Below, piece after piece: positions 2 to 5,022 of a stretch of 5,022 nucleotides of DNA (positions within the stretch are counted from its first letter, which is position 1; each line of letters begins with the position of its first letter). The position numbers were made by a program, and so were the translations under genes. The DNA comes from Candidatus Undinarchaeales archaeon (GTDB taxonomy: Archaea > SpSt-1190 > JASMDC01): contig JASMDC010000079.1 of assembly GCA_030753015.1 (NCBI GenBank), forward strand, positions 1 to 5,022. Direction: 5' to 3'. The notes beneath the pieces were generated by a model. It was given only the letters and a program-made list of their open reading frames with translations, was not told the origin of the DNA and searched no databases.

Positions 2-838
2 GTCACGGCCGAGGGGCCCGGGACCGCTCTCACCACCACGCTCTCATCGCTCACCGTGGGCGACGATACCGCTCACACGAGCTGCCAGCTGAGCGGCTCG
101 GTCTGGTACTGTCCCGTCACGCTCGCCAACTCGAACGGTGCCATGGTGGCCACTCCGAGCAAGAACGGGTACGTGCAGAAGGACTACGCTCTGGGCACAC
201 CCACCAACCGCGGGTCCAACACTGCGTCCCAGGTGTCCTCGACCGTCAGCAGCGTCCAGTTCGCGTACAAGATCACATCGGTCACGACCCAGGTGCTCGC
301 TGCGTCCCTCGCCACCGCCCTCGCCACCCTCAGTGTGGGTGACGACACCGCTAAGACCACCTGCTCGATCAGCGGATCCACCTGGTACTGTCCCGTCCTT
401 CTCACCAACAGCGACGGCACCATGGTGGCCGTCCCCACCCTCGACGGTTACGTGCAGAAGGACTATGGCCTGGGCACACCTACGAACAGGGGGGCCAACA
501 CCGCATCACAGGTCTCATCGGCCCTCACCGGCATCGAGTACGCCTACACGATCACTGGGATCGCCACCGAGGGTCCGGGCAACGCTATCATTACATCGGT
601 CTCCTCGCTCGCCGTGGGCGACGACACCGGGCAGGACTCCTGTGCCAGGAGCGGATCCACCTGGTACTGCCCGACAACGACAGCCAACTCCAACGGTGCA
701 CTCGTGGCCGTCCCGACGCTCGACGGCTACGTGCAGAAGTCGTACGCTCTAGGCACGCAGACCAACCGCGGATCTAACACGGCCTCTCAGGTCTCGTCCA
801 CAGTTTCGGGGATCCAGTACGCCTACAAGATCAACGGT
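2..838 (+). repeat. Units 1-3: subfamily A of the domain array
   Basis: These three 93-residue copies share features that are rare later on. They have S-G-S before the tryptophan (S-G-S-V-W or S-G-S-T-W), the variable segment reads NSNGA or NSDGT, and the stretch after G-Y-V runs VQK-[DS]-Y-x-LGT-[PQ]-TNRG-[SA]-NTASQVSS. Units 2 and 3 have P-T-L-D-G-Y-V where most later copies have P-T-K-D-G-Y-V. Unit 2 (281-559) is odd: the entry motif EGPA is replaced by QVLA and the following stretch becomes rich in Ala and Leu, with no change in length. Cysteine codons of unit 1 are at 83 and 110. Confidence 0.9.
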
Positions 839-3800
839 GTCACCTCCGAGGGGCCTGCGAACGACCTCACCGGCACGCTCTCGTCGCTCACCATGGGCGA
901 CACCACAGGCGAGGATTCCTGCGAGCTCAACGGGGGTGCGTGGTATTGTCCCGTGAGGCTGACGTACAGCGACCAGACGCTGGTAGCGACGCCCACCAAG
1001 GACGGGTACGTCCAGAAGGACTACAATCTAGGGACGCAGACAAACCGCGGGGCGCACACCACCGGACAGGTCTCATCGACCGTTAGCAGTGTGCAATTCG
1101 CTTACAGGATCACGTCCGTATCTACCGAGGGACCTGCCAACGCGCTCACCACGTCCCTCTCCGCCCTCACCGTGGGCGACACTACGGGCGAGAACACATG
1201 CCAGCTCAACTCGGGGACGTGGTACTGCCCCGTCGTGCTCGCCAACAGTAACCAGGTCTTGGTCGCGACACCCACCAAGGACGGGTACGTAGAGAAGGAC
1301 TACTCGCTGGCCACGCCGACAACGCGCGGTTCGCACTCGGCATCCCAGGTATCCTCAGCCGTAAACAGCATACAGTTCGCATACAGGATAACCGGACTCA
1401 CCAGCGAGGGACCCGCCAACGACCTCACAGGATCGCTCTCGTCCCTCACCGTCGGCGACGCGACCGGCGAGGAAACATGTCAGCTCAACTCGGGGACATG
1501 GTACTGCCCCGTGCGCTTGACCTACAGCGATCAGACGCTGGTAGCGACACCGACCAAGGACGGCTATGTCGAGCAGGACTACAACCTCGGTACGCAGACG
1601 AACCGTGGTGCAAACACAGTAGCACAGGTCTCGTCCACCGTGTCTGGATTGAAGTTCGCCTACAAGATCACCGGAGTCACCAGCGAGGGGCCTGGAACAG
1701 ACCTCACAGGATCGCTCTCCGCTCTCACCATGGGCGATGCCACCGGCGAGGACACATGCCAGCTCAACTCGGGGACGTGGTACTGCCCCGTCCGGCTGAC
1801 GTACAGCGACCAGACGCTGGTAGCGACGCCCACCAAGGACGGGTATGTGCAGAAGGACTACAATCTCGGGACGCAGACAAACCGCGGGGCGCACACCACT
1901 GGACAGGTCTCATCGACCGTCAGCGGTGTGCAGTTCGGCTATAAGGTCACCGGTGTAGCCAGTGAGGGCCCCACCAACGACCTTACAGGATCGCTCTCGG
2001 CGCTCACCGTGGGCGACGGGACAGGAAAGGACACTTGCACGCTCAACAGCGGTTCGTGGTATTGTCCGGTCCGTACTTCGTACTCGGACCAGACGCCGAT
2101 ATCGGCCAGGCCCACCAAGGACGGCTACGTCCAGGCTGACTACGACCTTGCTGCCCAGACCACCAGGTCATCCAACACCGCGGTACAAGTGGCCACCACT
2201 GTAGCCAGCGTCAGATTCGGCTACAAGGTCACGGGCGTAACCACCGAAACCTTGGGCTCCGCCATCACCGGCTCGCTCTCCTCGCTCACCGTGGGCGACG
2301 CATCTGGTCAGGATACCTGTCAACTCTATTCCGGTGCATGGTACTGCCCCGTCCGGCTGACGTACAGCGACCAGACGCTCGTGAGTACGCCGACGCTCGA
2401 CGGGTACGTGCGCAAGAGCACCTACCAGCTAACCGCGGGCATTAAGCGTACCGGTCAGGATAGTGCGCAGGTGAGCGACACAATCACTGGGATGGAGTAC
2501 GCCTACAAGATCGCCGGCATCACCAGTGAGGGGCCCGCCAACACGCTCACCTCATCGGTCACCGTGCTCACCGTGGGTGACGACACCGGACAGACGACAT
2601 GCACACGCAGCGGCTCGACCTGGTTCTGCCCCGTCATCCTCGCCAACTCGAACGGTGCCCTGGAAGGCACACCGACGCTCAACGGCTACGTCAAGCAGTC
2701 CTACGGCCTCACCGTCGCCAGCACGCGCGGCTCCCACGACACCGCGCAGGTCGCCGATACCATCGCGAGCGTGCAGTTCGGCTACAAGGTCACCGGCGTC
2801 AGCACAGAAGGCCCCGGTACGGCCCTCACCGGCTCGCTCTCGACGCTCACCCTGGGCGACTCGACCGGGAAGACGACATGCCAGCTCAACGGCGGTGCAT
2901 GGTACTGTCCTGTCGTGACCGCGAACAGCGACCAGACGCCGCTTGCGGTGCTTCCTACCAAGGACGGGTACGTCCAGAAGGACTATTCTATAGGCACCCA
3001 GACGGCCCGGTCCGTCGACACGGCCGCTCAGGTATCCACCACGGTGTCCGGGATACAGTTCGCCTACAAGGTCACCGGCGTCACCAGCGAAGGGCCCGCA
3101 AACGACCTCACCGGGATCCTATCGGCGCTCACCGTCGGTGACGCCACAGGCCAGAACGCCTGCACCCTCAACAGCGGCGCATGGTACTGCCCCGTCATGC
3201 TGGCGAACAGCGACCAGACGCTTGTGGCGACCCCGACGAAGGACGGCTACGTACGCAAGACCACGTACGCCCTGACCTCGGGCACGACGCGCGGGGCGCA
3301 CACCACCGGACAGGTCACCGATACCATCACCGGGCTGCAGTTCGCCTACAAGGTCACCGCTATCACCAGCGAGGGGCCCACCAACACGCTCACGACATCG
3401 GTGACCGCCCTCACGGTGGGCGACGCCACAGGCCAGACCGCCTGCCAGCTCCACTCGGGGTCATGGTACTGTCCTACGGTCCTTGCAAACAGCGACCAGA
3501 CGCTCGTCGCCACACCCACCAAGGACGGTTATGTCCAGCAGTCCTATTCCCTCACCTCAGGGACCACCCGTGGTTCGCACGACTCTACGCAAGTGAGCGA
3601 CACCCTCGCTAGCGTCAAGTTCGCCTACAAGGTTACCTCCGTCGCCACGGAGGGGCCCGCTAACGTCCTCACCAGTACGCTGTCTTCTCTCTCGGTGGGG
3701 GACGCGACCGGTCAGAATGCATGCCAGCTCAACGGTGGTGCATGGTATTGCCCCGTCGTGACCGCGAACAGCGACCAGACGCTGGTAGCGACGCCCACCC

Positions 3801-5022
3801 TCGACGGCTACGTACAGGCGTCGTATGGTCTCACCGCAGGCAACACCAGGGGCGCGAACACGGCAGCCCAGGTAGCCGACACCGTCACTGGCTTGCAGTT
3901 CGGCTACAAGGTCACCGGCGTCACTAGCGAGGGGCCCGCCAATGACCTCACGGGATCGCTCTCATCGCTCACTGTGGGCGACGCATCGGGACAGACCGCC
4001 TGCCAGCTCCACTCAGGTGCATGGTACTGCCCCGTCGTGACCGCGAACAGCGACCAGACGCTCGTCGCCACTCCCACCAAGGACGGCTACGTGCGCAAGG
4101 CCACGTACGCCCTGACCTCGGGCACGACGCGCGGTGCGCACTCGACCGCCCAGGTCGCCGATACCGTCACCGGGATACAGTTCGCCTACAAGGTCACTGG
4201 CATCACCACCGAGGGGCCCGCCAGCGACCTCACCGGTTCGCTCACGTCGCTCACGGTCGGTGACGATACGGGACAGAACGCATGCCAGCTCAATTCCGGT
4301 GCGTGGTACTGTCCCGTCGTCCTCGCCAACACCAACGGAGCGCTCGTGGCCACGCCGACCAAGGACGGGTATGTCCAGGGCTCCTATGGCCTCACCGTTG
4401 CCACTACCCGCGGCTCGCACGACGCTGGGCAGGTTGCCGACACCGTCGTAGGAATCCAGTTCGCTTACAAGGTCACCAGCATCACCACCGAGGGACCGGG
4501 CGCAGACCTCACGTCCTCGGTCACCGGTCTGACCGTTGGCGACGACACGGGGAAGGACGCCTGCCTTTTGAACAGCGGTGCATGGTACTGCCCGGTCGTG
4601 CTCGCCAACTCCAACGGTGCGCTCAAGGCCCGTCCCGTCAAGGATGGGTACGTGGAGGAGGACCACACCCTCACCGGCGCGTCGACCAGGGGCACTCACG
4701 CGACCGCCCGTTCCACCGGTACCGTCGCCGGCGTCCGCTTCTCCTACACGGTCCAGGTCGAGGACCAGCGCACCACTGCGGGCTCTGTGACAGGCGCCAC
4801 AGTCACCGCCGGGGCCAGCGACGTGGGCTGCACGTTCAATGTGGACCGGTACTACTGCCCGATCACCCTGGCCGATGACACCGGGGCCGATGCGGACGCG
4901 GACGCCGCGAAGACCGGGTACGTCACCACCCACTGGGACGCCGCCCTCGCCGCCGGCCGCACACAGCACACCGACTCACCTCTTGCGGTCACCGTTACCG
5001 ACATGCCCTTCGCGCAGAAGCT
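2..5022 (+). CDS. Giant tandem-repeat protein, probable secreted or surface stalk/adhesin (internal fragment, both ends missing)
   Basis: The frame starting at base 2 has no stop through to the window end, and its translation is a regular array of 18 related domains. The W-Y-C anchor codons begin at 104, 383, 662, 941, 1220, 1499, 1778, 2057, 2339, 2621, 2900, 3182, 3464, 3743, 4022, 4304 and 4583, with Y-Y-C at 4850; all spacings are multiples of three. The domain order is [ST]EGP, LTVGD, CX8C, a variable segment such as ANSDQT, TPTKDGYV, TTRG, then FAYKVTG. Every unit has exactly two cysteines and I see none elsewhere, which fits disulfide-bonded domains outside the cytoplasm. Synonymous change between near-identical copies supports real coding. 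In-frame ATGs at 143, 422, 893 and 1730 lie inside repeats and are not credible starts. No signal peptide, membrane segment, LPXTG-type anchor or enzymatic motif is visible. The surface-stalk role is inferred; the family is not recognised. Confidence 0.93.
959..1083 (+). repeat. Recently copied segment, unit 4 partner (matches 1796-1920)
   Basis: This 125-base stretch matches the stretch 837 bp downstream (three units away) at 121 positions. The four differences, at 1009, 1012, 1030 and 1063, are all third-codon changes and leave the protein unchanged (L-T-Y-S-D-Q-T to S-S-T). Neighbouring copies 5 and 6 are clearly less alike, so the match reflects a recent duplication or gene conversion acting on non-adjacent units. 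Confidence 0.88.
1796..1920 (+). repeat. Recently copied segment, unit 7 partner (matches 959-1083)
   Basis: This is the downstream member of the near-identical pair. Unit 9 also shares exact DNA with the beginning of unit 7's anchor region: about 41 bases from the Trp codon at 1778 match those from 2339. This unit therefore seems to have exchanged or shared sequence with more than one copy. Confidence 0.85.
1955..2797 (+). repeat. Units 8-10: first round of a three-unit higher-order repeat
   Basis: The block is 843 bp. Unit 8 (94 residues) has an extra Pro after Q-T in the variable segment (Pro codon 2096) and R-S in place of R-G. Unit 9 (94 residues) has an extra residue in V-R-K-S-T-Y, and its entry motif EGP is changed to ETL. 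Unit 10 (93 residues) has GSHDTAQV and the entry NTLTSSVT. These marks recur in the same order in units 11-13 and partly in 14-16. Unit 10 also carries W-F-C instead of W-Y-C (Trp codon 2621), S-G-S-T-W and NSNGAL, which resemble units 1-3 and suggest a mosaic copy. Confidence 0.82.
2798..3640 (+). repeat. Units 11-13: second round of the three-unit higher-order repeat
   Basis: This block is again 843 bp. Unit 11 repeats the marks of unit 8 (Pro insertion after Q-T with Pro codon 2939, R-S for R-G, T-T-V before the unit end). Unit 12 repeats those of unit 9 (V-R-K-T-T-Y, DTITG). Unit 13 repeats those of unit 10 (GSHD, NTLTTSVT). All three now have the ANSDQT version of the variable segment. 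Units 12 and 13 have Ala before the first cysteine, the version that continues through unit 17. Confidence 0.82.
3641..4480 (+). repeat. Units 14-16: third round of the three-unit higher-order repeat
   Basis: This block is 840 bp, because unit 14 lacks the Pro insertion found in units 8 and 11. Unit 14 shares LNGGAWYCPVVTANSDQT with unit 11 and V-Q-A with unit 8. Unit 15 (94 residues) has V-R-K-A-T-Y and DTVTG as in units 9 and 12, and the A-S-G-Q variant otherwise seen only in unit 9. Unit 16 has SYGLTVA and GSHD as in unit 10. Bases 4081-4140 match 3241-3300 at 57 of 60 positions (units 15 and 12, offset 840). Confidence 0.8.
4481..4759 (+). repeat. Unit 17: last canonical-length copy, partly diverged
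   Basis: This 93-residue copy keeps EGP, TVGDD, CX8C with W-Y-C (Trp codon 4583) and DGYV, and has the NSNGAL variable segment of unit 10 and the early units. After G-Y-V it departs from the consensus: V-E-E-D-H replaces V-Q-K-D-Y, the usual A-Q-V-x-D-T segment reads A-R-S-T-G-T, and the end reads FSYTVQ instead of FAYKVT. Conservation falls along its length, so the edge of the homogenised array lies within this unit. Confidence 0.85.
4760..5022 (+). repeat. Unit 18: strongly diverged terminal copy, cut by the window end
   Basis: The EGP and LTVGD motifs are gone, and there are four fewer residues before the aromatic-Cys anchor. The frame still gives CTFNVDRYYCP, with the same CX8C spacing, then I-T-L-A, K-T-G-Y-V, and near the edge T-V-T-D-M-P-F-A, which matches the Q-V-x-D-T-V-x-G-x-x-F-A part of canonical units. 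The variable segment is replaced by an acidic loop with Asp at codons 4874, 4877, 4889, 4895 and 4901, including D-A-D-A-D. This is probably a boundary domain linking the array to a different downstream region. Homology to the other units is supported by order and spacing more than by identity. Confidence 0.72.

Follow-up and report, generated by a model that had tools for sequence, protein, structure and literature searches.

The window analyzed here, the whole 5022-bp contig C94 of an archaeal MAG, appears to encode the shaft portion of a giant surface protein exported by a DPANN-type archaeon, a disulfide-clamped transthyretin-like rod that would form the stalk of a putative adhesin; we give this reading a probability of about 0.62. 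Its parts differ in strength. The rod of tandem domains is fairly well supported; since no head, anchor, or C terminus is present in the sequence of C94 or of its sister gene on contig C89, the adhesive function is something that we infer rather than observe.

The plus-strand frame beginning at base 2 is open at both ends of the window, with neither a start nor a stop codon (Table 1), and the longest frame in base-shuffled versions of the window reached at most 335 codons, compared to 1,673 in the real sequence. The dN/dS ratio (Nei-Gojobori) averaged about 0.3 between the 93-residue units and fell to about 0.1 when the terminal unit of C94 was compared with that of C89; this purifying selection indicated that the frame is a real coding sequence that is kept as protein. 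Moreover, since the gene runs past both ends of C94, the full protein must be longer than 1,673 residues. The frame was found to consist of 18 tandem units of 93 to 94 residues with an identical motif order, namely, a first unit without its initial residues (about 7, as the contig begins within it), 16 standard units, and a divergent terminal unit that was 24% identical to the reference unit and, by eye, looked most like the DELG-type units found in the relatives described below. The first-pass annotation had proposed a single giant repeat gene with 18 domains in a fixed motif order and a true product longer than the window, and these proposals were all borne out. Across the 17 whole units, Y2, C34, C43, P44, G62, Y63, V64, and R76 (first-row numbering) were invariant, WYCP and GYV motifs were conserved, and the 36 cysteines of the window fell into 18 pairs, every one with C-x8-C spacing (a spacing of nine). 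The MAG measures 3.85 Mb, compared to 0.6 to 1.1 Mb for nine members of the same class, which points either to an exceptionally large genome within this lineage or to a bin of composite origin; no archaeal small-subunit rRNA was found in the bin.

Table 1. Positions of the open frame, the tandem units, and the shared contig end in the window
Feature	Position	Strand	Remark
ORF without start or stop, internal part of the putative giant exported repeat protein	2..5020	+	1,673 codons
Unit 1, 5'-truncated by contig end, 86 aa	2..259	+	
Unit 2	260..538	+	
Unit 3	539..817	+	
Unit 4, in a local expansion with units 6 and 7	818..1096	+	Unit tree
Unit 5	1097..1375	+	
Unit 6	1376..1654	+	
Unit 7	1655..1933	+	
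Unit 8, tree partner of c89_1743_1836 in the sister gene	1934..2215	+	Unit tree
Unit 9, in one cluster with units 12 and 15	2216..2497	+	Unit tree
Unit 10	2498..2776	+	
Unit 11	2777..3058	+	
Unit 12	3059..3340	+	
Unit 13	3341..3619	+	
Unit 14, first in AlphaFold model	3620..3898	+	
Unit 15, second in AlphaFold model	3899..4180	+	
Unit 16, third in AlphaFold model	4181..4459	+	
Unit 17, penultimate; positional counterpart of C89 penultimate unit, 74% identical	4460..4738	+	
Unit 18, divergent terminal; 93% identical to C89 terminal unit	4739..5020	+	
77 bases identical to 3' end of C89	4946..5022	+	Shared end of both contigs

A paralogue of the window gene was present on C89, a contig of the same bin (frame 777-6845; 2,023 aa; start codon present), in which a signal-peptide-like N terminus is followed by a first domain, 19 standard units, and a terminal unit of the window type. 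Its N-terminal hydrophobic segment, VGLMAVLATALLLVLAVAT (KD 2.56), is typical of export, so that the start and export segment that the annotation had suggested seeking by extension of the contig were supplied by the sister gene; an export signal, one of the criteria for fibrillar adhesins, is thus found in the C89 gene, and the window itself is without its start. The first domain of the C89 product, IKVTVTDELGSALQGATVEV, starts with DIKVTVTDELGSALQGATVEV, carries a DELG...GATV signature, and matched CarboxypepD_reg (PF13620) weakly (17.2 bits; E = 0.0067; cut-off, 32.3). At the other end of the gene, about 40% of synonymous sites differed between the terminal units of C94 and C89 directly upstream of the identical 77 bases, and we interpret the shared 77-mer as the point where a k=77 assembly broke at a downstream segment that is common to both genes, nearly identical, and absent from the bin. 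Because both contigs stop at this break, the C terminus, and hence any head or anchor, lies outside the available sequence. The bin held no contig continuing the window at either end, and a search of a genome-contig collection with the window's last units gave no match. N-x-S/T sequons numbered 0 in the window protein versus about 16 expected from composition and 1 in the C89 paralogue versus 28 expected, and the contrast with the excess in the relatives described below suggests that both stalks avoid N-glycosylation, the units being homologous and the counts therefore not independent.

The mean identity of units was 59% within the window, 55% within C89, and 50% between the two. In the unit tree, the terminal units of both genes grouped together (100/100), the penultimate units paired across the genes, as did two further cross-gene pairs, and the remaining structure included local expansions (window units 4, 6, and 7; window units 9, 12, and 15; and 13 C89 units). 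The cross-gene pairs and local expansions together indicated that the C94 and C89 genes diverged long ago as paralogues and that their arrays, rather than being freshly homogenised, expand through local duplication. An earlier description of the domains as homogenised therefore held only in part: the units are alike, yet they are only 59% identical, with few positional pairs with C89 and with local expansions of their own. Within C89, positions 1482-4598 showed a two-unit higher-order alternation (YAFKIDT... and YAYKIT...), a mode of growth unlike that of the window array.

Searches of Pfam and NCBIfam with the whole window protein returned only summed scraps of 15 to 60 residues, no single one of which passed by itself; DUF2115, DUF5827, PKI, and others from Pfam, together with PRK01022 from NCBIfam and the PHROGs matches, were rejected as such. 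Single units had no credible match in the family libraries, the unit had no match in the PDB by sequence, and the CarboxypepD_reg profile rose above its cut-off in no unit. The view that the unit fits no named family was thus upheld by the profile search that had been put forward as its check, and the further suggestion that it might be undescribed holds for the sequence family, which is unnamed in the libraries searched, though the fold is probably known. The unit is outside the sequence families searched, and the kind of protein is nevertheless recognizable as a giant tandem beta-sandwich surface protein.

Relatives were sought with a mixed profile in 394 archaeal genomes, 4 of which matched: the window's own genome, G002 and G004 from the same class, and G202 from outside the class. 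G002 (DYHY01000001.1) is "Candidatus Micrarchaeum sp. DR5_63_9," a genus that NCBI places within the archaeal kingdom Nanobdellati, the group commonly called DPANN; it is through its kinship to G002 only that the window's own genome may be termed DPANN type. Two adjacent giant genes of G002 encode exported proteins of 1,983 and 2,366 aa, each with five to six units of the pattern C...WGCP...GYV. These units are about 15 to 30% identical to those of the window, from which they differ in being rich in N-glycosylation sequons and mixed with other beta domains. The window profile found G002 at an E value of 1.7e-4, and the link was reciprocal, as the G002 profile found the window at 1e-6, G004 at 1e-8, and a protein on C47, a 35-kb contig of the window's own genome, at 3e-4. 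Profile-profile comparison (hhalign) of the window units gave E values, pairwise and not database-wide, of 4.5e-9 against G002 and 3.7e-7 against G458, a genome from the G202 phylum, where 4 of 156 genomes matched. In 100 column shuffles of each target profile, the observed score was never reached, and reversing the profiles yielded no match. G458 carries a 2,218-aa frame (273-6926) with many units of about 81 aa, two of which have the cysteine pair. As a separate observation, the motifs of the G458 array read TNELG...AYINAT...GYVNKT, and its units, mostly without cysteines, are unnamed in Pfam. The C47 protein (1,217 aa) offers one possible architecture, in which an export segment is accompanied by one or two related units, cysteine-rich CGDGxC repeats, and, found only here, a membrane segment at the C terminus; it is a tentative relative, a different profile having given an E value of only 0.3. 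The relatives have N-terminal hydrophobic export segments, and sequons in the relatives and in the C47 protein occurred at roughly double the expectation or higher. Weak and short matches in G001, judged by eye only, and in G410 were not counted as relatives. Taken at the level of sequence, these profile matches connect the unit with giant exported proteins from its own class and, more weakly, with those of another small-genome archaeal phylum.

AlphaFold2 modeling of units 14 to 16, a step that the first-pass annotation had recommended, was performed with an alignment of 15 window rows and yielded three all-beta domains (pLDDT, 85.4; pTM, 0.80) whose boundaries match the sequence units; the extracellular type that had been ascribed to the domains also held up. 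The terminal unit, modeled alone with a mixed alignment, had a pLDDT of 45, and this model was set aside. The best solved structure in Foldseek was the TIE protein of B. anthracis (6fwv; E = 8e-6), followed by the pilin PitA (7vcr), with TM-scores that were low across the three-domain model. Both are stalk proteins of the CnaB type. The top row in VIA-align was SlaB, the Sulfolobus S-layer protein (Z, 6.0; rmsd, 3.4; 83 aligned), and the tool also listed the transthyretin-like domain of carboxypeptidase D (5aq0; Z, 5.3; rmsd, 3.3; 81 of 82 residues aligned), carboxypeptidases N and M, the NTE domain of SusC, and 5-hydroxyisourate hydrolase; the carboxypeptidase domains matched over nearly the full domain (Z, 5.3 to 4.9; rmsd, about 3.3), and all Z values here are below 8, a range in which the tool warns of a possible mere common arrangement. 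Although the single Z values are modest, this set and the DELG...GATV signature of the C89 first domain together point to a transthyretin-like sandwich. Each unit is predicted by the model to be a transthyretin-like or CnaB-like beta-sandwich, and a tandem beta-sandwich stalk, a further criterion for fibrillar adhesins, is present in the predicted structure. The window unit resembles CarboxypepD_reg domains in its predicted sandwich of the same size, and the typical VTVTDELGSALQGATVEV start of that family is present in the C89 first domain; it differs in falling below the profile cut-off, in its extra invariant C-x8-C pair and WYCP and GYV motifs, and in its long arrays of a single type. In the first modeled unit, C35 and C44 sit on opposite sides of a hairpin turn (residues 39-40), and the pair would form an intradomain disulfide across the beta-hairpin after export.

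The assignment of the window to an adhesin, stalk, or fiber class, as initially suggested, remains probable, and the export segment of the C89 gene, the predicted transthyretin-like or CnaB-like fold, and the archaeal relatives add to it. Nonetheless, a structural envelope protein, either an S-layer protein or the stalk of one, would contribute to a lattice or cell coat rather than to adhesion, and beta-sandwich arrays are usual in archaeal S-layers. The leading position of SlaB in VIA-align favors this possibility, but the two paralogues differ strongly in unit number and sequence, unlike a core lattice protein, the matches are patchy (4 of 394 genomes), and the available sequence contains no lattice or anchor domain. 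We therefore consider an envelope role unlikely, though it is the strongest of the alternatives. A second possibility takes its lead from the SPEARE proteins of Nanohaloarchaeota (PMC10266531), which like the window protein are giant DPANN surface proteins built mostly of tandem beta-sandwich domains of about 100 aa. For the giant nanohaloarchaeal surface proteins, composed mostly of Ig-like domains of this size, a role in host-cell binding has been proposed (PMC10266531), and they are, by analogy, the nearest described functional parallel. The window could then be part of a SPEARE-like protein in which one end of the array bears a secretion ATPase module used to attack host cells. Tandem Ig-like and VirB4/TraG-like ATPase domains have been described together in such proteins, which reach about 9,000 aa (PMC10266531), and the C terminus of the window protein lies beyond the available sequence; however, C94 and C89 contain no ATPase or other enzymatic domain, and the complete G002 frames have only beta-type domains in Pfam, which makes this arrangement quite improbable.

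The top Foldseek matches raised the possibility of a CnaB-type stalk held by intramolecular isopeptide bonds. CnaB adhesin and pilin stalks, including TIE and PitA, likewise use tandem transthyretin-like sandwiches as a stalk, and in these the isopeptide bond does the clamping (PMC12617251). Rather than a conserved isopeptide lysine, the window units have a cysteine pair in every domain: no invariant or near-invariant lysine column was present in the unit alignments (A1 and A2), in which the invariant residues are two cysteines, P, GYV, Y, and R, and isopeptide clamping is accordingly very improbable. The DUF11/CLIPPER stalk domains of archaeal fibrillar adhesins resemble the window in being covalently stabilized tandem beta-sandwiches, sometimes with disulfides (PMC12617251), but they have a CnaA-like (Ig) fold with an isopeptide bond, and the DUF11 profile of Pfam had no match in the window. 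We hold it just as improbable that the array, or its assignment to this genome, is an artefact of assembly or binning. The window is the whole of a short contig in a MAG of 117 contigs with an estimated contamination of 5.01%, and both repeat contigs stop at a k-mer break, but the units differ from one another (59% mean identity) with a synonymous bias, third-position GC (0.82 and 0.80) fits that of other genes in the genome (0.80), and related units occur on C47 and in the same class. Tandem beta domains occur in phage fibers, but a viral or proviral fiber is the least probable reading, since tblastn against 50,697 phage records and 72,556 plasmids found nothing, the sole viral-contig match was a frame full of stops (a second viral-contig scan was empty), and the relatives carry export segments.

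In the favored reading, the stalk of a putative adhesin, the C-x8-C disulfide would clamp each exported domain, doing what isopeptide bonds do in the CnaB stalks of Gram-positive bacteria, and the domains would line up one after another as a stiff rod tens of nanometers long. The rod could link a C-terminal module, outside the known sequence, to the cell or hold it away from the cell, and it may serve to touch partner cells or surfaces. Local duplication makes both the copy number and the type of unit drift, giving paralogues of unequal length. At somewhat less than even odds, we further suggest that the unit is the first of an undescribed domain family. Its disulfide-clamped transthyretin-like module would build giant stalks for cell contact across at least two DPANN-type phyla, and the cysteine pair would stand in for the isopeptide bond of Gram-positive stalks. 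Little is known of how DPANN-type archaea hold their partner cells, the giant proteins of Nanohaloarchaeota being the candidates described best. A sequence-defined stalk module from at least two archaeal phyla would provide a handle, in the form of a profile, a testable disulfide, and a modeled fold, for finding surface proteins of this kind, which the public family libraries searched do not flag.

Two further observations concern the neighborhoods of the relatives. On C47, two large cysteine-rich frames of the exported type lie near each other (3-4424 and 5972-9622), one with WD40-like repeats by eye and the other with the membrane segment and CGDGxC repeats noted above. In G002, the tandem giant genes (664-13706) overlap by a few bases and likely form an operon of paired surface proteins.
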